This document shows, piece by piece, positions 18,666 through 64,000 of a stretch of DNA of 64,000 bases. Every line of letters starts with the position of its first letter. The stretch's first letter is position 1. This DNA is from Neocallimastix lanati (nom. inval.) (Eukaryota; Neocallimastigomycota; Neocallimastigomycetes; Neocallimastigales; Neocallimastigaceae). The position numbers and the translations under genes were made by a program. The stretch spans positions 1,335,501 to 1,399,500 of the forward strand of contig JACVTC010000018.1 of assembly GCA_016946835.1 (NCBI GenBank). Reading direction: 5' to 3'. Under the pieces are notes generated by a model. That model was not told where the DNA came from and ran no database searches. It worked only from the letters and a program-made list of their open reading frames with translations.

Positions 18666-19352
18666 TTATAATATTAGTAATGAAGATAAAATTGATAAAA
18701 TTAATATAATACTACTTTTTTTAATAGTATCAGCATCACTTGTAATTTGTAAAGATCTACAATCGTCACTTTCTAATTTTTTAACTACATTATTATATGA
18801 ATTTAATTCATGATAGTTAAATGCTCCTTCAGTAACTGATAAATTTTCATAAGTTAATAAATGATCGATTTTAATTTTTTTAGCTACTTTAATAAAAGAA
18901 TCCGTACAAACTTTTGATTTACAAGTATTCTTTATAAAATCATAATCATAATCATCACTTATCACAAATATACCAAGTGGGCATAAATTATCTTCTTCAT
19001 CGGTTAAACAAGTTAAATCTTTAATAATGGCTGTATATTCTATATTAATTGGTTGATAGTATTCTTCAATTGTAGGTTCATTTTTACAGTTTGGAAGATA
19101 ATTTAATGGATTTTTATAAAAATTTTGACATTTTTCAGATTTAAAAGAAGAGCATAATTGTTTAAAATTAGTTTTAGTAACTTCATCCATACATTCAGTA
19201 TATTCTGAATTATTTAGCTCTTCAATACAAGCTTCACTTAATCCTTCATTAAACAAGTCTTCATTAAAAGTTACACCTCTTTTTACATTAATACTGTAAA
19301 CATTACATGAACTAACGATTATTAAATAAAAAAACAAATAAAGAATTTTCAT
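18666..19352 (-). CDS. Secreted cysteine-rich protein, probably GPI-anchored, family unknown
   Basis: A 228-residue intronless frame. The ATG at 19352 is followed by a hydrophobic signal peptide ('MKILYLFFYLIIVSSCNVYS'), with likely cleavage near residue 20. The mature part is acidic and contains ten cysteines (EAC, TEC, QLC, EKC, PNC, LTC, NLC, NTC, KVC, DDC), an even number that would allow five disulfides. The last ~20 residues ('KKSSIILILSILSSLLIL') form a hydrophobic tail after a small-residue region, as in GPI-anchor signals. An uncharacterised wall or surface protein of the fungus is the best reading; I recognise no catalytic motif. It is flanked by a Ty3/gypsy relic and a copia element, so it is a lone host gene in transposon-rich DNA. 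Coding use is A/T-rich like its surroundings, with no sign of transfer. Confidence 0.85.
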   Translation of the reverse strand: MKILYLFFYLIIVSSCNVYSINVKRGVTFNEDLFNEGLSEACIEELNNSEYTECMDEVTKTNFKQLCSSFKSEKCQNFYKNPLNYLPNCKNEPTIEEYYQPINIEYTAIIKDLTCLTDEEDNLCPLGIFVISDDYDYDFIKNTCKSKVCTDSFIKVAKKIKIDHLLTYENLSVTEGAFNYHELNSYNNVVKKLESDDCRSLQITSDADTIKKSSIILILSILSSLLIL

Positions 19353-19522
19353 TTTAATATTTATATAATTTAACTTTAGTAATATATATTATATATTTAT
19401 ATTAATTTTAAATTATATAAACATATTAAATATTTTTTATATAATCTATATTAAACCAAATTAAAAATTAATATTTTTTTTTTTTTTTTTTTTTTTTTGA
19501 ATATTTTTAATTAAATCATCTT
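19353..19522. other. Upstream region of secreted-protein gene
   Basis: A/T-rich sequence with a 26-base T run at about 19473-19498. It probably contains the minus-strand promoter, but no defined motif stands out. Confidence 0.4.
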
Positions 19523-36677: not shown

Positions 36678-37601
36678 TTATTTACATTTACCAAAGGCTT
36701 TTTGGCAACCAGCTTTACAGTGCTTATCGGAAGTACCACACCAACCATATTTACTACAGCATTCACCGGATGGACATTTACCATCTTCAGCACCACATTT
36801 ACCATTTGTAGAAATTTTTTCAGCTGTTTTACAGGTTCCATACTTAGCTTGGCAGCCACTATCAACTTTACAGTGCTTATCGGAAGAACCACACCAACCA
36901 TATTTGCTACAGCATTCACCAGATGGACATTTACCATATTCAGCACCACATCTTCCATTGGTAGAAATCTTTTCAGTTGTTTTACAGGTTCCATACTTAG
37001 CTTGGCAGCCACTATCAACTTTACAGTGCTTATCGGAAGAACCACACCAACCATATTTGCTACAGCATTCACCAGATGGACATTTACCATATTCAGCACC
37101 ACATTTACCATTAGTAGAAATTTTATCACTAGATGGAGTATTACCACTACAAGATTTAATTTCATATTCTTCTTTTTCTAAACATTTCATATCTTTTGGT
37201 TTGCAAAGATCATAATTTTTATCATAGTAACACTCTTCAAGTTTATCATTAGTTAAAGTCTTTCCTTTAATCTTTTTATTATCAGCAATGGAACTTTTTT
37301 TTTTTTTATTGTCATTGGTATATTAAAAAAAAAAAACATAAATATAAACATAATAAGAATAAATATATTATTATTTAATAATAATAACATAAATTTAAAA
37401 AATTTAAAATTACACATTAATACTATATAATATATATATAATATTATAATATTATATATAAAAATTATCTTTAAATACTTACAAGACTTTAAGATTTGGA
37501 AGACTATTTAAACTTTCAGGAATTTCGTCGTCAATTAAATTTTCATCCATATAACTATATATAAAATAAGGTAAAGTGATTAATATTTAAAATAAAATAA
37601 A

Positions 37602-44440: not shown

Positions 44441-45549
44441 CAAAATTTTTATTATTAAAAAATAATATATAAATTTATTTCTATTCATTTCTTTTTTATT
44501 GCAAATTATAATAAATGACATCTTGTAAAAATAACTTAATTTTAGTCATTTCAAATCAATTTATTAATTATCAAATAAAAAAAAAAATTTTTTTAACTGG
44601 ATATAGAAAATAATTTATATTATTTTTATTTTTATTTTATCTTGTTTTAATTTTTATTAATACTTTATTCTTTTTTATATTATTTAACTAATTATTTTAT
44701 TTTTATTTTTATTATTATTTTTATTTTTATTTTAATTTATTTATATTTTTCTTACATAATTATTTAAAATGGTATTAAATTAAAAAATATTAATTTTTAT
44801 GGGAAAAAATCTTTTTTAATACGTATTATTTATAAAAATATTAAATTACATTTTTTATCAATTATAATTAGACTAATTTTATAAACTATTTAAAATGTAT
44901 TAAATAAAAAAATTTATATTATATTCATAGTATAATTACTTCTATTATTTTTTAAAATTTTTATTTTATTTGTTTTATTTTATATTCATTAATTTTGAAT
45001 TATTACATTAAGTATTATGTCATATTCAAATGTAAAATTTAATAATATTTAGTTTTAGTTATAAAAAATTATTTCATTCTAAATTTATTAAATAATTTTA
45101 TTTATTTTTTTTAAAAAAAAAAAATATACCTGATAAATTTCTCTCTGAACATACTAGTTTAAAGAAAAATTTATATAAACAAGACCACTTTATTACTTTT
45201 TAAAGTATTTGTAAAGTGACCTTTATTATTTATATTTACCCTTTAAATATAAATAATAGTTTTAATATATTTAATGTAAACTACAAATAAAAATAAAATA
45301 ATTTTATAAATAACACTAATAATTAATAAACACGTATTATTAATTATACTAGTTAATTTTATATATTTTATTTATTAATATTAATATTTTTTTATTAAAT
45401 TTCCTCTTTCTTTTCTTTTGTTTACTTTTCTTCTCCTCTTCAAAATAAACAAAAGACATGTTATTTATTTTATTATAATTATTAAAGAACAAAGTTTTAA
45501 ATTATTAATATATTTTTAATATATTTTAATTTCTTAATTAACTTAAATT
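44441..45549. other. AT-rich sequence before the tandem array
   Basis: No gene. Two inverted repeats are visible: CCACTTTAttACTTT...AAAGTatttgTAAAGTG at about 45185-45220, and CTTTTGTTTA...TAAACAAAAG at about 45415-45457. Confidence 0.55.
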
Positions 45550-46014
45550 ATTGATAAATTTATATTTATATTTCATGAGAATACAATTCATATACATCAA
45601 AATATTTTATTTTATTATTAAATTAGTTATTTTCTTATCAATACCTTTTAAATAAATATTTAGTAATGTTATTTATTGAATTTTTTAATAATAACTTTAA
45701 TTATATTATATTAATCATTAAACTAAAAACATTAAAAACGTATTATATAATAATTAAATTATTTTAATTACTATATAAAGTTGAAAACTTTTAAGTATTT
45801 AAAACATCTTTATAATTAGAATTTTTCCAAAATTTTTTAAAAAAGATAATCTATAATAATATTATTAAACTTTAATTTATATACAATATTTAATAATTCT
45901 GTGAATAATTATTAATACATATTATTACTATTACATAATTTTGTAATTATGTAATTATTATATAAAACAACGGAAGTTATTTTATATATAATATTCTTAT
46001 TCAATAAGTTCAAT

Positions 46015-46161
46015 TTATTGAATAGTACATATGGCAGCATGATATCCGATATCAGTTACATTTTTAATTATTCTTGAAGATTTCTTCTTTATAGTCTTAG
46101 AACCAGTAAAAGAAGTATTTTTAACAATATTTGAGTTATTAACAACTATTTGACCTTTCAT
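46015..46161 (-). CDS. Candidate prenylated (CaaX) pheromone-like peptide precursor, copy 1
   Basis: 48 codons, intronless, ATG at 46161 in context GAGAAAAATGA. N-terminus 'MKGQIVVNNSNIVKNTSFTG' is Asn/Ser/Thr-rich and polar. The centre is 'SKTIKKKSSR'. The C-terminus is 'IIKNVTDIGYHAAICTIQ', ending in Cys45-Thr-Ile-Gln, a CaaX box predicted to be farnesylated. Known fungal a-factor-type precursors (S. cerevisiae MFA, S. pombe mfm, basidiomycete pheromones) are 35-60 residues, polar, multi-copy, and end in CaaX; the basic centre here could mark N-terminal processing. That function is inference. No signal peptide is present, as expected for Ste6-type export. AATAAA overlaps the stop codon, and a perfect 9-bp hairpin (ATTCAATAA/TTATTGAAT) spans it. 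Copy 1 is the most divergent at residues 5-7. Confidence 0.75.
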   Translation of the reverse strand: MKGQIVVNNSNIVKNTSFTGSKTIKKKSSRIIKNVTDIGYHAAICTIQ

Positions 46162-46385
46162 TTTTCTCTTTAACTTAACAAAATATATTTATATTTATAA
46201 TTTTTTTTTTAAATATTTAAATTTGATACTAAAAGTATTAATAGTTAATTTTTCAGTAACAAAGTAAATTTACTCTTTATATATATATTTTTACTAATAT
46301 TAATGAATAATAGAAATTTATAATACAATATATATTTTTAATAATTAGGGATTATAATGGAAAATAAAGGAGTGTTCAGTTTAAA

Positions 46386-46413
46386 TTATTTTATCATTAT
46401 TCTTATTGTATGA
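46386..46413 (-). promoter_or_regulatory. 28-bp element upstream of copy 1
   Basis: The block containing TCATTATTCTTATTGTATGA (plus strand) is identical over 28 bp in all six units and lies 225 bp upstream of this ATG. It is a candidate regulator-binding site. A TATA-like run (about 46275-46290) lies between it and the ORF. Confidence 0.6.
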
Positions 46414-48269
46414 CTTCTTATAGTATATAATATAAAGGAGTTCTTGAAAATTAAATAATCATTAAAACAAAGCTATAGTATTAATATTTCAATTTAAGAA
46501 TAAATATTATATAATATTAAAGTTCTATTTTATAGTATAATTTAATATGTAATAAATTTTATTATTAATTATATGTATCATTCTTAAAAAATATTAAATA
46601 AAATTAAACATTTTTCAATATTGAGTAGTATATTAAAAATTTATTTTAATGTTTGAATACATAATATGTTCAAAAAATATTATTAATATTAAAGTAATAC
46701 ACCATCTTATATATTAAATAATAATATTATAGTTAATTGCTAATAAAACATAATATTAAACTTTTAGAATATAAAATCATCAAATAATATTTAAAGGAAT
46801 AATATTTTATATCATCATATGATATTTTTTTTATTATTATTATAAATGTAAAATAATAAAAAATATATATTATAAGATAATAAATTAAAATCAAATAATA
46901 TCCAGATAAATAAACAACAACTTTAAAAAAATAAAAGAATAATAATAAAAAATTAATAAAAAAAATTACCTATATTATTAATCTATAATTTTACAAATAA
47001 TATATTAATACAAGAAGTTATTACTAATAATATTTACAAACAATAGTTTGATATTTTTATTGTTTTAAATAATTATTTTATCTGTTTTAATTATTAAAAA
47101 AATGATCTTTTTATTAATAAAATATTAATATTACTTCTAAATAAAAAATTAATACATTTTATAATTAATAATATTATAATCATTCATAATAATTAAAAAT
47201 TATATTAAATGTTTAAAATTTAAAAAAAAGTTAAATAAATATTATTTTAAATAAACAATTATTAAATTAATATGGATAATTAAAATGATATTAATATATT
47301 TAAAGATAAATAAATATTATTTTTTTAAAAAAAAAATAAAGATAAATTATGATAAATAAAAATTTATAATATTATCAAGAAAAACAGATTGAAAAAATTA
47401 TTATTAAAATGATTATTTCTATTAGAAAAATATTTAATGTATTAACTATTCCTATTTTATTAAATATTTAGAGATAGTTAATTAATAAATTTTTTATTTT
47501 ATTAATTACTTAATAATCTCTATTTAAAAAAATAGAAGATTATATAATATATATATAATAATTACTGAAAAATTTTTAATAATGTTATATCATAGTAATT
47601 TTTTTACAATTTATTAATTAATTCTTTGGATGAAAATTACTATTTAATAATAAATGTTAATTTTAACAGGTTAAAAATTATTTTTAATTTATTCTTTTGG
47701 TTTAGATATTATATAAAATATATATAACGTTCACTAAGACTGTTGTAATATGATTCTATAGTAAGGATTATAATAATAACATATAATAAAATTGAACACT
47801 AGCAAATAAGTACCTTTATATGCAAATCTATAACTTATTTATAGAATTGTAAGGTTAAAGATAACTTATATAATATATATTAAAATATATTATTTTTATT
47901 AAATAATTTAAGATATTTATCACTCATATTATTGTATATATGCCAATATTTAACAATAAAATATATTAAATTTAAAAATAGAAACATTCAATTGTATATT
48001 TTTAATTTCTTTATAAGTTTAATAAAGTTTTTTAAATTTTAGTAATTATATAATATTAATTCTATCATTAAAATATTTATTGAAAATAATTTCTATATTA
48101 AATAATAAATATTATTCATTTAACCGATTAATTTTATATTTTATTAAAATAAATTTATAATATAAATATTTTATTAGTTTATCATATCATATAAAATTTT
48201 TAATACTCACAATCATTTTATAAGCAATATTTTAATAAAAATAATTGAAAAGAAATATAAAAGTTAAAA

Positions 48270-48563
48270 TTAAAATATTAATATTTTGTTAAAAAAAATA
48301 AAATTTATAAAAAAAATTAAAATTTAAAAATGCATAATAATATAGATTTAATCTATTCATTTTCAAAAAAAAAATGCTTTATTATAATATAAAGTTTATT
48401 ATATTTATAAATGAATCATTCATTTCTCTTATTTTTATTTTAATTAAAATTAATTTAATTAAATAAATTAAAACTTATTATCTGGATGATTAATTTAAAT
48501 TAATTAAATCCAAATTTTAATTGGTGACTTTTATTCAGGAAAAAAAATAATAAAGAAAATATT
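48270..48563 (+). repeat. Left arm of ~293-bp inverted repeat
   Basis: Near-identical reverse complement of 48821-49114, with a ~257-bp spacer. It includes 'GCATAATAATATAGATTTAA' and 'TTATCTGGATGATTAATTTA'. Single direct copies of parts of this arm occur in the other units (about 51930-52080, 56870-57110, 59960-60127 plus 60693-60860). Confidence 0.85.
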
Positions 48564-48820
48564 TAAAAATAGATTTTTTTTTGAAATTTAAAATTTAATA
48601 ATTAAATATTTATAAATTATTTTTATTAGTATATTGAAATAAAAATAAATAATATATATAATATTTATAAAAATATTTAATATCATTTTTATTAATTCGA
48701 AATAGAAAAATTTTAAAAAATATGTATAAAAAGTTTATATATAAATTAAAATTAAAATTTTTATTGAATTCATAGTATAAAAGAATATATATTATTTTAT
48801 ATTAATATATTATTTTATAT

Positions 48821-49114
48821 TAATATTTTCTTTATTATTTTTTTTCCTGAATAAAAGTCACCAATTAAAATTTGGTTTTAATTAATTTAAATTAATCATC
48901 CAGATAATAAAATTTAATTTATTTAATTAATTAATTTTAATTAAAATAAAAATAAGAGAAATGAATGATTCATTTATAAATATAATAAACTTTATATTAT
49001 AATAAATCAATTTTTTTTTTGAAAATGAATAGATTAAATCTATATTATTATGCATTTTTAAATTTTAATTTTTTTTATAAATTTTATTTTTTTTAACAAA
49101 ATATTAATATTTTA
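48821..49114 (-). repeat. Right arm of ~293-bp inverted repeat
   Basis: Inverted copy of 48270-48563. It is found only in the interval between ORF copies 1 and 2, so it looks like a local inverted duplication. Confidence 0.85.
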
Positions 49115-49636
49115 AGTTTATTTGTTTTATTTTATATTTCTTTATATAAAATTAAATTAAGAATTATAATACAATTTAATGTAGTATTTAGAAATACATA
49201 ATTATGAATAATTATTTCTTTTTAAATTTATTCAATAATATTTATTATTTTTATAAATAAAATAATATACATTTAAAATATATATTTAATAATGTTATTT
49301 TTGAATAATATTGATGATAACTTTTATTATATTATATAAATTTTTATAATTAAGATATTAACAATATACTATATAAAAATTAAATAAATTTAATTACTAC
49401 ACAAAATTGAAAACTTTTAAGTATTTAAAACATTTTTAATTAAAATTTTTACAAAAATTATTTAAAAAAAATCTATATTTTTATAATTTAATTTTAATTT
49501 ATATATTATATTTTTTAATTCTTTAAATGATTAGTAGTATATATTATTACTATTACATAATTTTGTAATTATGTAATTATTATATAAAACAACAGTAGTT
49601 ATTTTATATATAATATTCTTATTCAATAAGTTCTAT

Positions 49637-49784
49637 TTATTGAATAGTACATATGGCAGCGTGATATCCAATATCAGTTACATTTTTAATTATCCTTGAA
49701 GATTTCTTCTTTAAAGTTTTAGAACCAGTAAAAGAAGTATTTTTAACAATGTTTGAGTTATTAATAACAGTTTGAACCTTTCAT
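49637..49784 (-). pseudogene. CaaX-peptide precursor, copy 2, frameshifted
   Basis: 148 bp instead of 147: an extra base in codon 3-4 (GAACC at 49774-49778 where others have GACC) gives 'MKGSNCY' then stop. The remaining 45 codons are intact in the other frame, with 'IIKNVTDIGYHAAICTIQ' at the end. Sequence is almost the same as copy 3. Either recently inactivated or a sequencing error. Confidence 0.8.
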
Positions 49785-50007
49785 TTTTCTCTTTGCCTTA
49801 ACAAAATATATATATATATTTATATTTTTTTTTATAAATATTAAATTTGATACTAAAAATAATAATAATTTTTTTTAGTAATAAAGTAAATTTTCTCTAT
49901 ATATATATCTTTTTATTTATATTAATAAATAATTGAAATTTATGATACAGTAAATATTTTTAATAATTAAGGATTATGATAGAAAATAAAGGAGTATTCA
50001 ATATATA

Positions 50008-50035
50008 TTATTTTATCATTATTCTTATTGTATGA
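50008..50035 (-). promoter_or_regulatory. 28-bp element upstream of copy 2
   Basis: Identical to the element at 46386-46413; 224 bp upstream of the copy 2 ATG. Confidence 0.6.
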
Positions 50036-52823
50036 TCCTTTATCAAATATTATATAAAGGAGTTTTCGAAAATCAAATAATTAAAACAAAGCTATAATAT
50101 TAATATTTTCAATTTAAGAATAAATATCGTATAATATTAAAGTTATATTTTATTGTATAATTTAATATTTAATAATTTTTATTATTAATTATATGTATTA
50201 TTCTCAAAAAATATTAAATAAAATTAAACATTTTTCAATATTAATTAGTATATTAAATTTATTTTAATAATTGAATACATAATATGTTCAAAAATAATAT
50301 TAATATAAATATATTACACCATCCTATATATTAAATAATAATATTATTATTAATTGATAATAAGATATAATATTAAACTTTTAAAATATAAAATCATCAA
50401 ATAACATTTAAAGGAAAAATACTTTACATTATCAGATGATATATTTTTTTATTATTATTAATGTGAATTAAACAATAAATATTATAAAATTATAAATTAA
50501 ATATCAAATAATATCCAGAATAATATTTATTGTTTGGATAATTATTTTATATAATTTAGTTATTAAAAAAAATTTTTTTTAATAAAATATTAATATTAAT
50601 TCAAAATAAAAAAAATAAAATTAATACTTTTTATAATAAATATATTTATTATTAATCATATAAAAATTATAGTCAATTTCTAAAGTTTAAAAAAGTTAAA
50701 TAGATATTATTTTAAATAAACTATAATTAAATTAATATGGATAATTAAAATAATACTAATGTATTAAATGATAAATAAATATTTTTTTTTAAAAAAAAAG
50801 TTAAGAGTAAATTATAATAAATAAAATATTTATAATATTGATACAAATAAAATGAAACAATCATTTAATAATTTGAATATTCCTATTAGAAAACAATTTA
50901 CTTTATAAATTATTCTTGTTTTATTGAATATTTAATATAGTTAATTGATATATTTTTTAGTTTTATTAAATATTTAAAACTCTAAATATATAAGAATATT
51001 ATATTATAAACAATTTATATATATAATAATTTTGAAATATGAATTTCCAATAATTTTATATTATAGTATATTTTTTTAAAATTAATTAATTAATTCATTG
51101 CATTGTAAATTAATATTTTATTGTCAGTTAAAGTTTTAATATATTTATTATTATATTTTAATTCATTCTTTTATTTTATGTTTTAAAAAAAAATATTTAT
51201 AACATTAACAAAGGCTGAAATAATAGGATTCCGTAGTAAATATTGTAATATCATATTATAAATTTAAACACAAACAAATAAGTATGTGTATATGCTAATT
51301 TACAACCTATTTATATCATTAAGAAGATAAAGAAACATTACAAGTAGATAAGGTTTATGTAATGTTGTTAAATTAATTTCAAAGCTTATATAAAACCCGA
51401 AACATAAATTACGAATCCTAAAGTTTATTTTCCTCATTTCTAAATCAAAAAATTGATCTTTAAAAGAAAAACTTTAATATAGGAATATTTAATAATATAT
51501 TTATTACAAAAAAATAAATTTAAATAACTTATATAATATATATTAAAATATATTTTTTTTATTAAAAAATTTAAGATATTTATCACTCATATTATTGTAT
51601 ATATGCCAATATTATATAATATTAACTCTATCACAGAAATATTACTAAAAAATAACTTTTATGTAAAAAAATATATATATTATTAATTTATCTAATTAAC
51701 TTTATATTTTATTAAAATAAATTCATAAAATTAATATTATATTAGTTTATTATATCATATAAAAATTTTAATATTTACTATCAATTTATTAACATTATTT
51801 TAATAAATATAATTTAAAATAAATAAAAAAGTTAAAATTCAAATATTATATTTTGATAAAAAACATAAAACCTATAATAATAATTAATTTTTTTTGGTAT
51901 ATAATTAATTAATTTTATTATATTCATTATGAATTATTCACTTTTTTTTATTTTCATTTTAAATAAAATTAATTTTAAGAATTTAAATTAAATTTTATTA
52001 TCTGGATGATTAATTTAAATTAATTAAAAATAAATTTCAATTGGTGACTTTATTCAGGAAAAAAAATAATAAAGAAAATATTTAAAAATAGATTTTTTTT
52101 TGAAATTTAAAGTTTAATAATTAAATATTTATAAATTATTTTCATTAGTATATTGAAATAAAAATAAATAATATATTATTTATAAAAATATTTAAGATCT
52201 TTTTTATTAATTCTAATTGGAAAAATTTTAAAAAATATGTAAAAAAAGTATATAAATTAAAATTAAAATTTATATTGTATTAATAGTATATATTATTTTT
52301 AAAATTTAAAGTTTATTTGTTTTATTTTATATTTCTTTATATAAAATTAAATCAAGAATTATATTACAATTTAATGTAGTATTTAGAAATACATAATTAT
52401 GAATAATTATTTCTTTCTAAATTTATTCACTAGTATTATTTATTTTTATAAATAAAATAATATACAATTAAAATATATATTTAATAATGTTATTTTTGAA
52501 ACATATTGATGATAACTTTTATTATATTATATAAATTTTTATAATTAAGACATTAACAATATACTATATAAAAATTAAATAAATTTATTACTATACTAAA
52601 ATGAAAACTTTTAAATATTTAAAACATTTTATAATTAAAATTTTTACAAAAATTATTTAAAATAAATCTATATTTTTATAATTTAATTTTAATTTATATA
52701 TTATATTTTTTAATTCTTTAAATTATTAGTAGTATATATTATTACTATTACATAATTATGTAATTATTATATAAAACAACAGTAGTTATTTTATATATAA
52801 TATTCTTATTCAATAAGTTCAAT

Positions 52824-52970
52824 TTATTGAATAGTACATATGGCAGCGTGATATCCAATATCAGTTACATTTTTAATTATCCTTGAAGATTTCTTCTTTA
52901 AAATTTTAAAACCAGTAAAAGAAGTATTTTTAACAATGTTTGAGTTATTAATAGCAGTTTGACCTTTCAT
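52824..52970 (-). CDS. Candidate CaaX pheromone-like peptide precursor, copy 3
   Basis: Intact 48-codon ORF. N-terminus 'MKGQTAINNSNIVKNTSFTG', centre 'FKILKKKSSR' (Phe21 and Ile23 where most copies have Ser and Thr), C-terminus 'IIKNVTDIGYHAAICTIQ'. His41 uses CAC rather than CAT, a silent change. Probable role and caveats are as for copy 1. Confidence 0.75.
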   Translation of the reverse strand: MKGQTAINNSNIVKNTSFTGFKILKKKSSRIIKNVTDIGYHAAICTIQ

Positions 52971-53193
52971 TTTTCTCTTTGCCTTAACAAAATATATATA
53001 TATATTTATATTTTTTTTTATAAATATTAAATTTGATACTAAAAATAATAATAATTTTTTTTAGTAACAAAGTAAATTTTCTCTATATATATATCTTTTT
53101 ATTTATATTAATAAATAATTGAAATTTATGATACAGTAAATATTTTTAATAATTAAGGATTATGATAGAAAATAAAGGAGTATTCAATATATA

Positions 53194-53221
53194 TTATTTT
53201 ATCATTATTCTTATTGTATGA
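53194..53221 (-). promoter_or_regulatory. 28-bp element upstream of copy 3
   Basis: Identical to the other five; 224 bp upstream of the ATG. Confidence 0.6.
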
Positions 53222-55249
53222 TCCTTTATCAAATATTATATAAAGGAGTTTTCGAAAATCAAATAATTAAAACAAAGCTATAATATTAATATTTTCAATT
53301 TAAGAATAAATATCGTATAATATTAAAGTTATATTTTATTGTATAATTTAATATTTAATAATTTTTATTATTAATTATATGTATTATTCTCAAAAAATAT
53401 TAAATAAAATTAAACATTTTTCAATATTAATTAGTATATTAAATTTATTTTAATAATTGAATACATAATATGTTCAAAAATAATATTAATATAAATATAT
53501 TACACCATCCTATATATTAAATAATAATATTATTATTAATTGATAATAAGATATAATATTAAACTTTTAAAATATAAAATCATCAAATAACATTTAAAGG
53601 AAAAATACTTTACATTATCAGATGATATATTTTTTTATTATTATTAATGTGAATTAAACAATAAATATTATAAAATAATAAATTAAATATCAAATAATAT
53701 TCAGAATAATTTTTATTGTTTGGATAATTATTTTATCTAATTTAGTTAATTAAAAAATTTTTTTTTTTTAATAAAATATTATTAATAATTCAAAATAAAA
53801 AAAATAAAATTAATACTTTTTGTAATAAATATATTTATTATTAATCATATAAAAATTATAGTCAATTTCTAAAGTTTAAAAAAGTTAAATAGATATTATT
53901 TTAAATAAACTATAATTAAATTAATATGGATAATTAAAATAATACTAATGTATTAAATGATAAATAAATATTTTTTTTTAAAATAAAAGTTAAGAGTAAA
54001 TTGTAATAAATAAAAAATTATAATATTATTGACACAAACAAAATGAAACAATCATTTAATAATTTGAATATTCCTATTAGAAAATTAGAAAACAATTTAC
54101 TTTATTAATTATTCTTGTTTTATTGAATATTTAATATAGTTAATTGATATATTTTTTAGTATTATTAAATATTTAAAACTTTAAATATATAAGAATATTA
54201 TATTATAAATAATTTATTTATATAATAATTTTGAAATATGAATTTCCTATTATATTATAGTATATTTTTTTAAAATTTATTAATTAATTCATTGCATTGT
54301 AAATTAATATTTTATTGTCAGTTAAAATTTTAATATATTTATTATTATATTTTAATTCATTCTATTATTTTATGTTTTAAAAAAAAATGTTTATAGTATT
54401 AACAAAGGCTGAAGTAATAGGATTCCGTAGTAAATATTGCAATAATATATTATAAATTTAAACACTAACAAATAAGTATGTGTATATGCTAATTTACAAC
54501 CTATTTATATCATTAAGAAGATAAAGACACATAATAAGTAGCAAAGGTTTATGTAATGTTGTTAAATTAATTTCAAAGCTTATATAAAACCCGAAACATA
54601 AATTACGAATCCTAAAGTTTATTTTCCTAATTTCTAAATCAAAAAATTAATCTTTAAAAGAAAAACTTTAATATAAGAATACTTAATAATGTATTTATTA
54701 CAAAGAAATAAATTTAAATAACATATTATATATTAAAATATATTTTTTTCATTAAATAATTTAAGATATTTATCACTCATATTATTGTATATATGCCAAT
54801 ATTTAACAATAAAAAATATTAAATTTAAAAATGGAACCATTCAGTTTTATATTTTTAATTTCTTTACAAGTAAATTAAAGTTTTTTTATTATTAGTAATT
54901 ATATAATAATATTGTTTATGAAATTTTTTTAATTATTACTTAAATTATAATTATATTAATCATTATAAAAAGTTATAAACAACATACTCTATAATAATTA
55001 AATTCATTTAATTATTATATAAAATTGAAAATATTAAAACATTTTAAATATTTTTATTATTAGAATTTTTAAAAAATTTTTTTAAAAAAGTAATCTATAT
55101 TTATATTATTTAACTATAATTTATATTTTATATTTAATAATTATTTATATAATTATAATATATATTATTATTAATGTACAGTTATGTAATTATTATATAA
55201 AACAGTAGAAATTATTTAATATATAATATTCTAATTTAATAAATTTTAT

Positions 55250-55396
55250 TTATTGAATAGAACAGATGGCAGCATGATATCCAATATCAGTTACATTTTT
55301 AATTATCCTTGAAGATTTCTTCTTTAAAGTTTTAGAACCAGTAAAAGAAGTATTTTTAACAGTGTTTGAGTTATTAATAGCAGTTTGACCTTTCAT
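55250..55396 (-). CDS. Candidate CaaX pheromone-like peptide precursor, copy 4
   Basis: Intact 48-codon ORF. Residue 12 is Thr and the CaaX box is Cys-Ser-Ile-Gln. The segment before it, 'IIKNVTDIGYHAAIC', is unchanged, with Ile44 written ATC rather than ATA. The Ser/Thr variation falls only at the first 'a' of CaaX, which is removed after prenylation, so the predicted mature peptide would be the same as in copies 1, 3 and 6. Confidence 0.75.
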   Translation of the reverse strand: MKGQTAINNSNTVKNTSFTGSKTLKKKSSRIIKNVTDIGYHAAICSIQ

Positions 55397-55618
55397 TTTT
55401 CTCTTTAACTTTACAAAATATATATATTTTTATTTTTTTGTTATAAATATTAAAATTTGATACTAAAAATAATATTAATTTTTTTTAGTTACGAAGTAAT
55501 TTTTCTTTTTTATATATACCTTTTTATTATTAATAATAAATAATAGAAATTCATTTTACAATTAATATTTTTAATAATTAAGGATTATAACATAAAATAA
55601 AGGAGTATTCAGTTTATA

Positions 55619-55646
55619 TTATTTTATCATTATTCTTATTGTATGA
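55619..55646 (-). promoter_or_regulatory. 28-bp element upstream of copy 4
   Basis: Identical to the other five; 223 bp upstream of the ATG. Confidence 0.6.
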
Positions 55647-57854
55647 CTTCTTGTAGTATATTATTTAAAAGGGTTCTTGAAAATTAAATAAATTATTAAA
55701 ACAAAACTATAATTTTAATATTTTCAATTTAAGAATAAATAACATATAATATTAAAGTTATATTTTATAGTATAATTTAATATGTAATAATTTTTATTAT
55801 TAATTATATGTATCATTCTTAAAAAATATTAAATAAAATTAAACATTTTTCAATATTGAATTGTATATTAAATTTATTTTAATATTTGAATACATAATAT
55901 GTTTAAAAATAATATTAATATTAATATATTACACCATCTTATATATTAATCAAAATTTTTTTTATTGTTTATGAATGGTTAATTAATAAATTTTTAATTT
56001 TATTAAATATTTAAAATTCCAAATATTAAAGAAGATTATATTATAAACATTTATACATATAATAATTACTGAAATATAAATTTAAAATAATTTTTATTTT
56101 ATAGTATAATTTTTAATATATATTAATTCCTTGCATTATAATTCACTATTTTAATGTCTTTTTTTTTCAATAGATTTATTTTAATATTTTTATTCGGTTT
56201 AATTGTTTAAATAGAATATAAAATTTTTATAGCATTCACTAAGGCTATAGTAATCAAATTCTCTAGTAATGAATGTAATAACATATTATAAATTTAAACA
56301 CTAATTAATAAGTACCTCTATATGCAAATCATCAACTTATTTATAGCATCATAAGATTAAAGATATATAATAAATTAATAAATGTAAAGAATGCATTTAA
56401 TATAAATCACAAAGAAATAATTTTAAGTAATTTATATAATATAAATTAATATATACCATTTTTTTTTTGTAATTTAATATATTTATTACTCATTTTATTG
56501 TATATATGCCAATATTTAAAAAGAAAATATATTAAATTTAAAAATAGAAACATTCAATTGTATATTTTTAATTTCTTTACAAGTTTATTAATGTTTTTTA
56601 AGTATTAATAATTATATTATAAAATAATACTAAATCTATCACAAAAATATTACTAAAAAATAATTTCTATAAAAAAAAATATATATTATTAATTTAACCG
56701 ATTAACTTTATATTTTATTAAAATAAATTTATAATATTAATATTATATTAGTTTATCATTTCATATGAAATTATTAATACTCACAATCATTTTATAAATA
56801 ATATTTGAATAAATATAATTGAAAAAAAATAAAAAAGATAAAATTCAAATATTATATTTTGTTAATAAACAACACAGATTTAATCTATTCATTTTCAAAA
56901 AAAAATGTTTTATTATAATATAAAGTTTATTACATTTATAAATGAATCATTCATTTCTCTTATTTTTATTTTAATTAAAATTAATTTAATTAAATAAATT
57001 AAAACTTATTATCTGGATGATTAATTTAAATTAATTAAAACCAGATTTTAATTGGTGACTTTATTCAGGAAAAAAAATAATAAAGAAAATATTTAAAAAT
57101 AGATTTTTTTTTGAATTTAAAGTTTAATATTTAATATTCATTAAATTTTTTTTTATTATTTTAAATAAAAATAAATAATACATATTATTTATAAAAATAT
57201 TTAAGATTATTTTTTTTAATTCGAAATATAAAAATTTTAAAAAATATTTAATAAATATATATATAAATTTTAATTAAAATTTTTATTGAATTCATAGTAT
57301 ATAAGAATGTATATTTTTTTTAAAATTTTAAGTTTATTTGTTTTATTTTATATTTCTTTATATAAAATTAAATTAAGAATTATAATACAATTTAATGTAG
57401 TATTTAGAAATATATAATAATGAATAATTATTTATCTCTATATTTATTCAATAGTATTATTTATTTTTATTAAAAAAAATAATATACATTTAAAATATAT
57501 ATTTAATAATGTTATTTTTGAAATATATTGACAATAACTTTTATTATATTATATAAATTTTTATAATTAAGATATTAACAATATACTATATAAAAATTAA
57601 TAAATTTAATAACTATACAAAATTGAAAACTTTTAAGTATTTAAAACATTTTATAATTAAAATTTTTACAAAAATTATTTAAAAAAAAATCTATATTTTT
57701 ATAATTTAATTTTAATTTATATATTATATTTTTTAATTCTTTAAATGATTAGTAGTATATATTATTACTATTACATAATTATGTAATTATGTAATTATTA
57801 TATAAAACAACAGTAGTTATTTTATATATAATATTCTTATTCAATAATTTCTAT

Positions 57855-58001
57855 TTATTGAATAGTACATATGGCAGCATGATATTCAATATCAGTTACA
57901 TTTTTAATTATCCTTGAAGATTTCTTCTTTAAAGTTTTAGAACCAGTAAAAGAAGTATTTTTAACAATGTTTGAGTTATTAATAGCAGTTTGACCTTTCA
58001 T
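57855..58001 (-). CDS. Candidate CaaX pheromone-like peptide precursor, copy 5
   Basis: Intact 48-codon ORF ending 'IIKNVTDIEYHAAICTIQ'. Gly39 is replaced by Glu (GGA to GAA), the only amino-acid change seen in residues 25-45 of any copy. It could encode a variant peptide or be starting to decay. The rest matches copy 3 apart from Ser21 and Thr23. Confidence 0.72.
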   Translation of the reverse strand: MKGQTAINNSNIVKNTSFTGSKTLKKKSSRIIKNVTDIEYHAAICTIQ

Positions 58002-58221
58002 TTTTCTCTTTGCCTTAACAAAATATATATATATTTATACTTTTTTTATAAATTTTAAATTTGATACTAAAAATAATAGTATTTTTTTTTAGTAACAAAG
58101 AAAATTTTCTCTATATATATATCTTTTTATTTATATTAATAAATAATTGAAATTTATGATACGGTAAATATTTTTAATGATTAAGGATTATGATAGAAAA
58201 TAAAGGAGTATTCAATATATA

Positions 58222-58249
58222 TTATTTTATCATTATTCTTATTGTATGA
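58222..58249 (-). promoter_or_regulatory. 28-bp element upstream of copy 5
   Basis: Identical to the other five; 221 bp upstream of the ATG. Confidence 0.6.
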
Positions 58250-60127
58250 CTTCTTGTAGTATATTATATGAAAGAGTTCTTGAAAATTAAATAAATAATT
58301 ATGACAAATCGATAATATTAATATTTCAATTTAAGAATAAATATCATATAATAATAAGGTTATATATTATAGTATAATTTAATAATTTTTATTATTAATT
58401 ATATGTATTATTCTTAAAAAATATAAAATAAAATTAAACATTTTTCAATATTAATTAGTATATTAAATTTATTTTAATAATTGAATATATAATATGTTCA
58501 AAAATAATATTAATGTTAATATATTACACCATCCTATATATTAAATATTAATATTATTGTTAATTGATAATAAGATATAATATTAAGCTTTTAGAATATA
58601 AAATCATCAAATAACATTTAAAGGAAAAAATACTTTACATTATCAGATGATATATTTTTTTTTATTATTATTATTATTAATGTGAATTAAAAAATAAATA
58701 TTTTAAGATAATAATTTAAATATCAAATAATATTCAGAATAATTTTTATTGTTTGAATAATTATTTTATCTAATTTAATTATTAAAAAAAATTTTTTTTA
58801 ATAAAATATTAATATTAATTCAAAATAAAAAAAATAAAATTAATACTTTTAATAATAAATATATTTATTATTAATCATATAAAAATTATAGTCAATTTCT
58901 AAAGTTTAAAAAAGTTAAATAGATATTATTTTAAATAAACTATAATTAAATTAATATGGATAATTAAAATAATACTAATATATTAAATGATAAATAAATA
59001 TTTTTTTTAAAAAAAAGTTAAGAGTAAATTATAATAAATAAAATATTATAATATTATTGACACAAACAGATTGAAACAATCATTTAATAATTTGAATATT
59101 CCTATTAGAAAACAATTTACTTTATTAATTATTCTTGTTTTATTGAATATTTAGAGATAGTTAATTAGTAAATTTTTTATTTGATTAATTACTTAATAAT
59201 CTCTATATTAAAAGAATATTAGATTTTATATAATATATATATATACTAATTACTAAAATATGAATTTTTAATAATGTTAATATCATAATAAATTTTTTAA
59301 AATTTATTAATTCTTTGAGTTGAAAATTACTATTTTATTAGAAATGTTAATTTCAATAGGTAAAAAATTATTTTTAATTTATTCTATTAATTTCAGATAT
59401 TACATAAAATGTATATAATGTGATAATATGATTCTATGATAAGGATTAACTTTTAATAAATTTGAACACTAACAAATAAGTACCTTTATATGCAAATCTA
59501 TAACTTATTTATACCATTATAAGGTTAAAGATGTATAATAAGATTATATAATAAGTTACTAAGATGTAATGTATACAGTTAATATAAATTCATAGTTACT
59601 AGGGTATCCGAAATACATTAAATTTCCTAAATTTTATTTTCCTCATTTTTAATTATTAAAATTGATCGTAATGACAAAAACTTTAATATCTGAATATTTA
59701 ATAATATATTTATTCCAAAGAAATAAATTAAATAACTTATATAATATATATTAAAATATATTATTTTTATTAAATAATTTAAGATATTTATTATTTATCA
59801 CTCATAATATTGTATATATAAAAAAATATATATATATATATAATTCATTTAACCGATTAACTTTATATTTTATTAAAATAAATTTATAATATTAATATTT
59901 TATTAGTTTATCATATCATATAAAATTTTAAATACTCACAATCATTATATAAACAATATTTGAATAAAAATAATTGAAAAGAAATATAAAAGTTAAAATT
60001 AAAATATTAATATTTTGTTAAAAAAAATAAAATTTATAAAAAAAATTAAAATTTAAAAATGCATAATAATATAGATTTAATCTATTCATTTTCAAAAAAA
60101 AAAATGCTTTATTATAATATAAAGTTT

Positions 60128-60688
60128 TGATATACAACTCAAAAGTTCGATGTACTTTTGTTGGGATTTATTTATTAAATTTATTAATTTATTATTTATT
60201 TATTTATTTATTTAATTTTATATAAAAACTACATATATTTAAAAAAGACTATTTAACAACTTTCTTATTCTTTTAATTACAAACTAACTTAACATAATAT
60301 AACTTTTACACAACAACGACGACTACAGCCCAAAGCAGCTTCTCTTAAATTCAGAGAAATGCTTTTATTTTTATGTTATTTAGTTATAATTAACTATTTA
60401 ATTAATTGTTCTTGTGATTAGAATAAACTATTAATAATTATTATTTAAGGAAATATTTAATAACTATATAAATATAAATATAAAATAATAAGAATATAAT
60501 TAAAACATTGATTTATGCTATAAAATTTATTATTAATTATAAATATAATTAATTTATAGAAATCAAGCCATATATTGAAATTGTTGTAAAATCATTAAAT
60601 TTAAATTTGATTTATGACATTAATTTATGTTTGAATAATAAAAACTAATTTTATATTAATTAAGGTTTGAATATTTCATTTTATATCA
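60128..60688 (+). mobile_element. Solo LTR (561 bp) inserted in array unit 6
   Basis: Begins TGATATAC and ends TTATATCA, so TG...CA with 7-bp inverted ends. It is flanked by GTTT on both sides (60124-60127, 60689-60692). The uninterrupted target is visible in other units as AAAGTTTATTA (about 48390 and 56931). It has no ORF; the only less A/T-biased part is around 60300-60360. It does not resemble the copia LTRs or the Ty3/gypsy LTR-like regions here, so it belongs to another family. Orientation is undetermined; plus is arbitrary. Confidence 0.85.
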
Positions 60689-61217
60689 GTTTATTATATT
60701 TATAAATGAATCATTCATTTCTCTTATTTTTATTTTAATTAAAATTAATTTAATTAAATAAATTAAAACTTATTATCTGGATGATTAATTTAAATTAATT
60801 AAAACCAAATTTTAATTGGTGACTTTATTCAGGAAAAAAAATAATAAAGTTAATATTTAAAATAAGTATTTTATTTTGTTATTTATGTAATTTTTTGATA
60901 TTAACTTTAGTTATATAATATTAATCATAATATATTTATTAATAGCATTTCATATAATTACAATAGTATAATTACTACTAATTACTATATAGAAGTTTTT
61001 ACTTCTATGGATTTAAAACATATTTATAATTAGAATCTTTACAAAAATTTTTTTTTAAAAAAAAATAATCTATATTTATAATATTTAACTTAAATTTATA
61101 TATTACAATTTTTTATATAATTATAATATATATTATTATTAATGTATAGTTATGTAATTATTATATAAAACAGTAGAAATTATTTAATATATAATATTTT
61201 AATTCAATAAATTTTAT

Positions 61218-61364
61218 TTATTGAATAGAACAGATGGCAGCATGATATCCTATATCAGTTACATTTTTAATTATCCTTGAAGATTTCTTCTTTATAGTCT
61301 TCGAACCAGTAAAAGAAGTATTTTTAACAGAGTTTGAGTTATTAACAGCAGTTTGGCCTCTCAT
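61218..61364 (-). CDS. Candidate CaaX pheromone-like peptide precursor, copy 6
   Basis: Intact 48-codon ORF. N-terminus 'MRGQTAVNNSNSVKNTSFTG' differs from the others at residues 2, 7 and 12. The centre 'SKTIKKKSSR' and 'IIKNVTDIGYHAAICSIQ' keep the conserved core, with Ile38 written ATA where copy 1 has ATC and copies 2-5 ATT. Three different Ile codons at one site is strong evidence for selection on the protein. Confidence 0.75.
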   Translation of the reverse strand: MRGQTAVNNSNSVKNTSFTGSKTIKKKSSRIIKNVTDIGYHAAICSIQ

Positions 61365-61592
61365 TTTTCTCTTTAATTTTATGATATAAATATTATTACA
61401 ATATTTTTTATTTTGTTTTTGAATATAAAAATTTAATATTAAAAATGATAGTGATTAATTTTTAAGTAAAAAGTAAATTTGCTCTTTATATATTTTTTTG
61501 ATTTATAATAATAAATAAAAGAATTATATAATAAAAAAAATTTTTTAATGATAAAAGATTATGATAGAAAATATAGGAGTGTTCATTTTATA

Positions 61593-61620
61593 TTATTTTA
61601 TCATTATTCTTATTGTATGA
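61593..61620 (-). promoter_or_regulatory. 28-bp element upstream of copy 6
   Basis: Identical to the other five; 229 bp upstream of the ATG. Confidence 0.6.
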
Positions 61621-62694
61621 CCTCTTATAGTATATTATATAAAGGAGTTTTAAAAAATTATATTAATTCTTAAAACAAAACTATAATGTTAATTTTTTCA
61701 ATTTAAGAATAAATTACATGTAATATTAAAGTTCTAAAATATAATATAATTTAATAAGCAATCTTTTTTATTAATAATTATATGTATTGTTATTAAATGA
61801 TAATAAATAAAATTACATTTTTTCCTATAGCGCATATTATATTTAATTTATTTTATACTGTTTGAATACAAAATGTATTCTTAAATAATATTAATTTTTA
61901 GTATATTTCACAATCGGATATATTAAATAATAATAATATTATGAATTACGATTATTAATAATTTATACAAAACAGATAAATGATAAAAACATTAAATAAT
62001 ATATAAAGGAAAAATACTTACATTATCAGAAGATATTTTTTTTCATAATTATAATTAATATGAAATAATAAAATATATATTAAAAAATAATAAATTAAAT
62101 ATCAAATGATAACAATAATAAATAAATAAATAAATAAATAACTTTATAATAATTGAAGAATTATAATATAGAATTAAAAAAAAAAAAAATACCCAATTGT
62201 AAATTTAATTTTTAATTATAAATAATATATTAATAAAATGAGATATTACTAATAATATTTGAAATCAATAATCATCATGATTATTTTTATTGTTTTAAAT
62301 ATTATTTTATCTTATTTGAAAAATGAAAATTATTATTTCTATTTTAATAAATTATTAATATTATTTCAAAATAAAAAAAAAATTTAAAAATAATAGTTTT
62401 TATAATCAATAAAATTATTTTTGGTAAAAAATAGATATATTGACAGCCTCTTAACAAAAAAAAAAAGGATTACTTAAATATAGAATCATGCAACAATACT
62501 TCTGGCAGAATAAATTAGTTTTTGATTGAAGTAATTTTTTTTTTCAAGTTTTATAGTTTTTCATATGGAAATGATGAAATGATGATTGATATCATAACCA
62601 AGAAATTTCTTTGAATTTTTTTTTTTTAAATTAAAGAGAATTTTAAAGATATTAAACATTGAAATGTGATCTTCCCTTTTGAAGCTTTAATCTT

Positions 62695-63305
62695 CTAACT
62701 TTTCTTTTTAATGTTTACTTTTGTTCTTTTATCACTTGGATAATATATTCCAAATTCATTTATTTTCAAAACAATATTATTTTTATTTGCATAATCCATT
62801 AATAATTTAACTATTTCAATATTATCTTTTCTAGTAGCCTCGAGAAGTGGATAATTTACATATTTATAACCCTTTTCATTTATTTTTAAAACAATACTAT
62901 TTTTATTGGCATAAACCATTAATAATTTAATTATTTCAATAATATTACGATAAGTTGCCTGGAGAAGCAGATAATTCCTATCTTTATCCTTTTCATTTAT
63001 ATTCAAAACAAAATCAATTTTATTTGAATAATAATTATTAAATTAATTATATCTATATTATTATTAGTAACGGTCCAGAGAAGTGGATAACTTCCATTAT
63101 TAATCTGTAAATTTATTATTAATTCAATATTATTTTTATTGGCATATTCAATTGGTAATTTTACTATATTAATATTATTATTATAAGTGGCTCGAGAAAC
63201 GGATAATCCCCAGTGTATAATTATTTCTATATCAATATTATTTTTATTAGCATAATGAAATAGTAATTTGACTATTTCAATATTATTCTTTAACCTAAAA
63301 AACAT
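62695..63305 (-). pseudogene. Ankyrin-repeat protein gene, frameshifted or partial
   Basis: Minus strand. Frame 63305-63003 has 'RLKNNIEIVKLLFHYANKNN' and 'NNNINIVKLPIEYANKNNIE'. A frame change near 63030 leads to 63000-62695 with 'INEKDKDRNYLLLQATYRNI', 'EIIKLLMVYANKNSIVLKIN' and 'RKDNIEIVKLLMDYANKNNI', ending in a basic tail. There are about five ankyrin units of ~35-40 residues in the style typical of anaerobic-fungal ankyrin proteins. No clear upstream start or signal; the first unit begins mid-repeat, so it is 5'-truncated as well as shifted. The single shift could be a sequencing error. Confidence 0.8.
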
Positions 63306-63352
63306 AAAATGAACGTTTTAAATGTCAATTTTTAGAAGACCACATTATAAAA

Positions 63353-63580
63353 ATTAAATCGAGAAGAATACATTAAAGACGGAGATAACATCAGAAAAAT
63401 TATTAAGAAAAATAAAGACAAACTTCAACAAATAAATGAAGCACATTCAAATTGGACACGAAAGATTTTGTAGTACTTATGAAACACTAAAGAAAGCTTG
63501 TTATTGGAAAGATATTACTATTGATATTAGAAGATATATTCAAAATTGTGCTACTTATCAAATAGGTAAAAAAAAAAAAA
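63353..63580 (+). pseudogene. Integrase HHCC zinc-finger remnant (retroelement)
   Basis: 'EEYIKDGDNIRKIIKKNKDK' and 'LQQINEAHSN' lead, after a one-base frame change near 63450, into 'IGHERFCSTYETLKKACYWK' and 'DITIDIRRYIQNCATYQIGK'. This is the H..H..C..C finger of an integrase (H2C2 type). The second Cys is Tyr (TAT for TGT). A run of A residues follows and homology ends. No catalytic core is present. It differs from the two Ty3/gypsy integrases above, so it derives from another retroelement lineage. Confidence 0.75.
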
Positions 63581-63659
63581 AAAAAAAAATTCTAACCCTA
63601 CATAGAAATATACAGCAAAATAATTTAAAGTATATTTCATTAAAAAATAAAATATAACT

Positions 63660-64000
63660 TTTATTTATTAATTAATTAATTAATTAGTCTTTGTAACTTT
63701 TCTCTAACATAAAAGTTAACTTTTCTTTATTTACATTATTTCATTTCTGGATATTTAATTAATTTCATTGATTTTTTTTTTTTTTTTAGAATAATAAAGT
63801 TTTTAATAATAATATATTTTTAGAAATATAATATATTTTTATATATTATATATTATATTGTAATATAAAAAATATTATTATAATTTTAATTTGTTTAACG
63901 TAAATATTTATTGTATATAACTCATGGTTATATTTAATTATTATAGTAAGTTATTATATAAATCTATTTCACACTAGATTTTTTAATATTGTGTTATTAT
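63660..64000. other. AT-rich sequence, nothing recognised
   Basis: Short TTAATTAA repeats and a T run at 63772-63787; no gene seen. Confidence 0.5.

Follow-up and report, generated by a model that had tools for sequence, protein, structure and literature searches.

The window analysed here is a stretch of 64,000 nucleotides from the genome of Neocallimastix lanati (positions 1335501-1399500 of contig C90; the genome searched comprises 199 Mb in 762 contigs), and it contains a tandem array of six copies of a short open reading frame (ORF) whose product ends in a CaaX box. All six copies lie on the minus strand. Copy 1 (46015..46161) and copy 3 (52824..52970) are intact and end in ICTIQ, as does copy 5 (57855..58001), which carries the replacement G39E. 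Copy 4 (55250..55396) and copy 6 (61218..61364), the latter one of the most diverged copies, are intact and end in ICSIQ. The frame of copy 2 (49637..49784) is broken by one extra T at codon 3 and is open beyond that point to ICTIQ. Each of the five intact ORFs is 147 bp long and encodes 48 amino acids (aa). The original prediction, made from the letters of this DNA, had described six same-strand copies of a 147-bp ORF, five of them intact, and its positions and counts agree with ours; the strand, which it did not name, is minus, and the positions that it gave are the low-end coordinates of minus-strand ORFs. What is repeated is not the isolated ORF: the start-to-start distances of 2.4 to 3.6 kb, together with long flanking homology, indicate tandem amplification of entire units. 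For the unit alignment, the array was taken to span 45315..63864 (minus strand), with cut points of our own choosing; the upstream end of the last unit is arbitrary and reaches into ankyrin-like ORFs. Units 2 and 3 share identical stretches of 300 and 253 bp, which points to recent duplication or exchange.

The encoded peptide begins with a polar N-terminus, MKGQTAINNSN. By reading, we saw no hydrophobic start or signal peptide, and no internal repeats were seen by reading in the product. Seven Ser or Thr residues occur among residues 1 to 24 of the consensus, a polybasic stretch (KKKSSRIIK) lies 12 to 20 residues ahead of the CaaX Cys, and the pair G39-Y40 is present in 4/5 intact copies, with four residues separating the Tyr from the Cys. 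All six copies (copy 2 past its frameshift), as well as the database proteins P0002 to P0004, end in CTIQ or CSIQ. Variation in the box is confined to position a1 (T or S in the array, N in two decayed copies described below), and Cys45, Ile47, and Gln48 are unchanged in 8/8 rows of the alignment, the fragment of a decayed copy included. We take C-[TS]-I-Q to be a farnesylation-type CaaX box under the usual rules. The chance of an end of the form C-x-[ILVM]-[SQAMCT] is ~6e-4 (0.06% of proteins), a rough figure from local residue frequencies in five long neighboring frames (5472 letters), which by reading are largely retroelement and ankyrin sequence. The predicted structure, a single helix over residues 20 to 47, is of low confidence (mean predicted local distance difference test score [pLDDT], 58). 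The earlier description of a short, multicopy ORF with a polar N-terminus and a CaaX end holds, the start having been judged by reading.

In the six-unit alignment, the ORF had a mean pairwise identity of 94.2%, a guanine-plus-cytosine (GC) content of 26.5%, and 0.3 gap columns per pair. The eight adjacent 150-bp blocks showed 67 to 89% identity and 8.7 to 16.5% GC, leaving the ORF with the highest identity and the highest GC among the nine blocks compared. Gap columns per pair were likewise 0.3 in the block 150 to 300 bp upstream and were 5 to 21 in the seven others. Over the 600 bp that precede the ATG, the copies share 87 to 89% identity, below the ORF and above most of the downstream sequence. 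The ratio of nonsynonymous to synonymous substitution rates (dN/dS) was 0.17 to 0.40 in the nine pairs, of 15 in total, to which copy 1 or copy 6 belongs. Codons 25 to 48 showed 5 synonymous versus 2 amino acid changes (neutrality P of 0.006 to 0.015, the range depending on transition bias), and codons 2 to 24 showed 5 versus 11 (P of 0.3 to 0.5), as without constraint; in this count, the codon 3 change of copy 2, a frameshift product, is scored as an amino acid change. Such a pattern would fit a disposable pro-region followed by a constrained tail. Intact variants also occur in public protein data: P0002 and P0003 are new, P0004 corresponds to copy 6, and all are 48 aa long with a CaaX end. 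P0002 and P0003 would fit an origin in the same species as the source of the array or in near relatives. Judging from few changes in the letters, we consider that the ORF is very probably protein coding, and the feature as a whole is most likely a lineage-restricted, tandemly amplified gene for a small orphan CaaX peptide.

A genome-wide search returned the six copies of the array and two degenerate copies (8/8 scored candidates), and with copy 6 as the query at E <= 10, the same 8/8 places were recovered; no more paralogues were found genome-wide. Of 54 rows of DNA matches, nine represent these eight places, and the 45 others, which are weak, were taken as a group to be AT-rich similarity. 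One decayed copy lies outside the array on its own contig, C90, at ~545 kb (within 541500-551499), and the other lies on contig C14 (within 484500-494499); each comprises the ORF and its upstream region. Both are without the ATG, the letters there differing, and in both, codon 4 is TAA. Identity to array units is 73 to 77% over 1.1 to 1.8 kb for the C14 copy and 69 to 77%, in two pieces, for the C90 copy; between the two decayed copies, it is 92% across 1.2 kb around the ORF. The C14 copy has retroelement frames on its flanks. Frames near the C90 copy appeared transposon-like by reading.

Upstream of each ORF, on the minus strand, lies a 29-mer without differences among the six copies: 46385..46413 (223 bp before the ATG of copy 1), 50007..50035 (222 bp, copy 2), 53193..53221 (222 bp, copy 3), 55618..55646 (221 bp, copy 4), 58221..58249 (219 bp, copy 5), and 61592..61620 (227 bp, copy 6). 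It looks like a promoter element common to the copies. We rejected it as an element common to other genes, as its seven exact places genome-wide are the six in the array and the C14 decayed copy. With up to 3 mismatches, 31 places were listed, among them the C90 decayed copy and 23 that represent one repeated TAA-type sequence; a control search with the backwards sequence gave 4 matches. At the other end of the ORF, an A/T palindrome of 9 to 11 bp covers the I-Q-stop codons of each copy (e.g., 61181-61243, minus strand). Its arms are perfect over 9 bp in copies 1, 2, 3, and 5 and over 11 bp in both copy 6 and the decayed C90 copy, these two differing in inner-arm letters; there is one mismatch in copy 4, and the palindrome is broken in the C14 decayed copy. 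Folding relative to shuffled sequences was modest (z from 0.09 to -1.85), and given this we do not claim a functional stop-codon hairpin. A structured RNA was rejected, as no Rfam family reached its gathering score in the window, one tRNA excepted. A second short ORF in the units (47880-47987 and its kin) was rejected as coding: its GC content is 10 to 13%, and it is intact in 3/5 places read, its upstream half being lost near 51540 and its start near 59750.

The genome carries marks of the gut-fungus source that had been proposed. All 150 candidates scored for the CBM_10 dockerin family (PF02013), of 1440 first-look candidates, matched (at least 150 in the genome), and we take this family to mark anaerobic gut fungi. 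For class C seven-transmembrane (7TM) receptors (7tm_3), 131 of 150 scored candidates, from 303, gave matches, many of them in uninterrupted frames of at least 500 codons; together, the two families uphold the proposed source. Several of the class C matches cluster on one contig, and the matches form a large receptor set; class C 7TM receptors are described for gut fungi (PMC5168858). Recognizable among the frames around the array were fragments resembling retroelements, ORFs with ankyrin repeats, and a chitin-binding protein. The last (36681-37322, minus strand) has three Chitin_bind_1 stretches, and opposite-strand frames are open there too; a Chitin_bind_1-associated Kex2-repeat type is mentioned for Neocallimastix and Piromyces in PMC7329392. 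Adjoining the array is an AT-rich ankyrin-like repeat ORF (62698-63317, minus strand; Pfam scan), and more ankyrin-like ORFs were seen by reading in the 50 kb past the window. A 240-codon frame at 18669-19388 (minus strand) has, by reading, a signal-peptide-like start (MKILYLFFYLIIVSSCNVYS) and matches no Pfam family. Among frames of at least 75 codons over 144 kb around the array, neither a receptor nor a mating gene was recognized by reading and by Pfam scans of ten window frames.

The leading single reading, which we hold tentatively, is that the array encodes an a-factor-like secreted lipopeptide signal; that it is specifically a mating pheromone seems unlikely. Under the signal reading, a short cytosolic precursor encoded by the lineage-restricted, tandemly amplified gene would be farnesylated at the Cys of C-[TS]-I-Q, its last three residues would be cleaved, and the Cys would then be methylated. 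The Asn/Ser/Thr-rich, unconstrained N-terminal half would be trimmed away, and the C-terminal peptide ending ...NVTDIGYHAAIC would be exported as the lipopeptide signal, for which the receptor would not belong to STE3. A precursor with the tail as its product agrees with the polybasic stretch, with the constraint on the tail, and with the apparent lack of constraint in the Asn/Ser/Thr-rich first half, and prenylation of the peptide, judged from its letters, is reasonably probable. The a-factor-type precursors (MFA1/2 of Saccharomyces cerevisiae, mfm1-3 of Schizosaccharomyces pombe, and those of basidiomycetes) are likewise short, without a hydrophobic start, multicopy, and CaaX terminated, and a Ser/Thr-rich N-terminus and a variable N-terminal versus constrained C-terminal half may be further points of likeness. 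They differ in that our peptide has no detectable sequence relationship to them, comes from a non-Dikarya phylum, and was found without STE3. The motif IIKxV of yeast a-factor occurs in this tail too, a weak likeness, as 0.65% of shuffled 20-residue tails have it. Putative Leotiomycete a-factors have Ser/Thr-rich N-termini, 87 of them carry Gly-Tyr close to the C-terminus, and CTVM, CTIL, and CSIM are among their ends (PMC10569646); the GY found here, with four residues between it and the Cys, may be comparable. The Kex2-processed repeat peptides (KEPs) that PMC7329392 reports in Neocallimastix and Piromyces are also candidate ribosomal peptides of gut fungi, but they are Kex2-cut repeat precursors, and our ORF by reading encodes neither a signal peptide nor an internal repeat.

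Several observations weigh against a secreted signal of this kind. The Ste3-type receptor expected in the same genome did not appear: there was no match to PF02076 among 2 candidates scored, in a search that an intron-split gene could escape and that gave matches in 0/14 control genomes, so that absence is not proven. STE3 receptors come predominantly from Ascomycota and Basidiomycota, according to PMC12842992, and PMC3834313 reports that in arbuscular mycorrhizal fungi (Rhizophagus), a STE3 and a STE6 orthologue were detected and that a search for a peptide pheromone gene found none. The 131 class C matches, obtained by the same method, indicate that it is not blind to 7TM genes in this genome. 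Since the receptor, a defining feature of the a-factor/STE3 system, was not found, membership in that system cannot be claimed. Four families of the predicted processing set are present, namely, PPTA alpha-subunit repeats (10 matches, of which 8 exceed the cutoff), Rce1-like proteins (PF02517; 23 matches), M48_N (3), and ICMT (6); these families discriminate little because CaaX-processing enzymes are, to our knowledge, nearly universal in eukaryotes. The 23 PF02517 matches (contigs C13, C42, C21, and C312), several of them clustered, outnumber what CaaX processing by itself seems to call for and possibly represent bacterial-type CPBP proteases. Within the array, dN/dS was 0.54 to 0.85 in five of the six pairs among copies 2 to 5 (dS <= 0.067; in the sixth pair, dS was 0), which, with one broken copy of six, fits relaxed constraint. 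The contrast between the ORF halves, with few substitutions, was not significant by itself (Fisher P of 0.17), and codons 2 to 48 taken together gave P of 0.02 to 0.07. The Gly of the GY motif is absent in copy 5, and because the palindrome covers the I-Q-stop codons, those letters may not be conserved for the protein alone. Finally, a protein search that depends on exact 5-residue words in common returned solely the near-identical, unnamed 48-aa proteins P0002 to P0004 (3/3 candidates; 3/4 in a second search) and no relative among known pheromone precursors; in PMC10569646, known a-factors likewise went undetected by BLAST. Pfam and PDB searches gave no convincing relative and no domain above Pfam cutoffs, with weak matches to FAM25 (E of 0.056, 3/5 members) and Zuotin (E of 0.23) taken as chance, and of the pattern-matching stretches in IMG/VR (165) and in prokaryote genome contigs (235), none was confirmed as a relative. 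The idea of a pheromone or signaling lipopeptide locus is supported in part, by the CaaX end, the multiple copies, the C-terminal constraint, the processing families, and the public variants, and it found no support in the searches for STE3 and for pheromone homologues.

The alternative that survives best, though we think it improbable, is a small prenylated intracellular protein, tethered to the membrane by its farnesyl group and KKKSSRIIK, that acts as a regulator or scaffold and is not secreted. A basic stretch before a farnesylation-type box is also a property of Ras/Rho-type GTPases and G-gamma, and the absence of a hydrophobic start, the conserved C-terminal half, and the lack of a STE3 match all suit such a protein. 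However, our ORF encodes no GTPase or G-gamma domain and only 48 residues in whole, with nothing above Pfam cutoffs and a model of low confidence, and its unconstrained N-terminal half suits a pro-region (a disordered linker equally). We also doubt that the ORF encodes an unprenylated orphan peptide, e.g., a basic antimicrobial or nucleic-acid-binding one, with a coincidental CxIQ end. The product is lysine rich, its relatives are near-identical ones alone, and the palindrome by itself could keep the last codons constant; against this stand the rough estimate of how seldom chance puts a canonical box precisely at the C-terminus and the invariance of three of its residues in every alignment row. 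It is quite unlikely that there is no functional gene and that the ORF is a remnant in an amplified intergenic or regulatory segment or in a dying family. The narrow gap between ORF and upstream identity, the equally gap-free block 150 to 300 bp upstream, the frameshift in 1/6 copies, the loss of the ATG in 2/2 ectopic copies, the higher dN/dS among copies 2 to 5, and the setting among retroelement-like fragments and ankyrin ORFs would all agree with decay, but the raised GC content, the higher identity, the predominance of synonymous changes over the final 24 codons, and the intact public variants speak for a gene. It is highly improbable that the ORF forms one exon of a longer spliced gene and that the CaaX box is hence not the true end of the protein: introns are possible, and in copies 3 and 6, the frame extends over 78 codons from stop to stop, but the upstream frame of the other copies is not open to that length, the start context AAAGAGAAAAATG is constant in all six copies, and all share one common stop, past which GC content and identity fall.

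Among the titles listed by searches of an open-licence library, none was on gut-fungus mating or pheromones. The fullest form of the secreted-signal reading, a gut-fungal farnesylated cell-cell (possibly mating) signal perceived by a non-STE3 receptor, e.g., a class C 7TM protein, is rather unlikely. If true, a non-STE3 signal in gut fungi would put CaaX lipopeptide signaling outside the Dikarya, with an independent or very ancient origin. As a CaaX precursor of 48 aa whose mature end can be tested, the product would also offer a chemical handle, because the lipopeptide could be synthesized and applied to zoospores or thalli.

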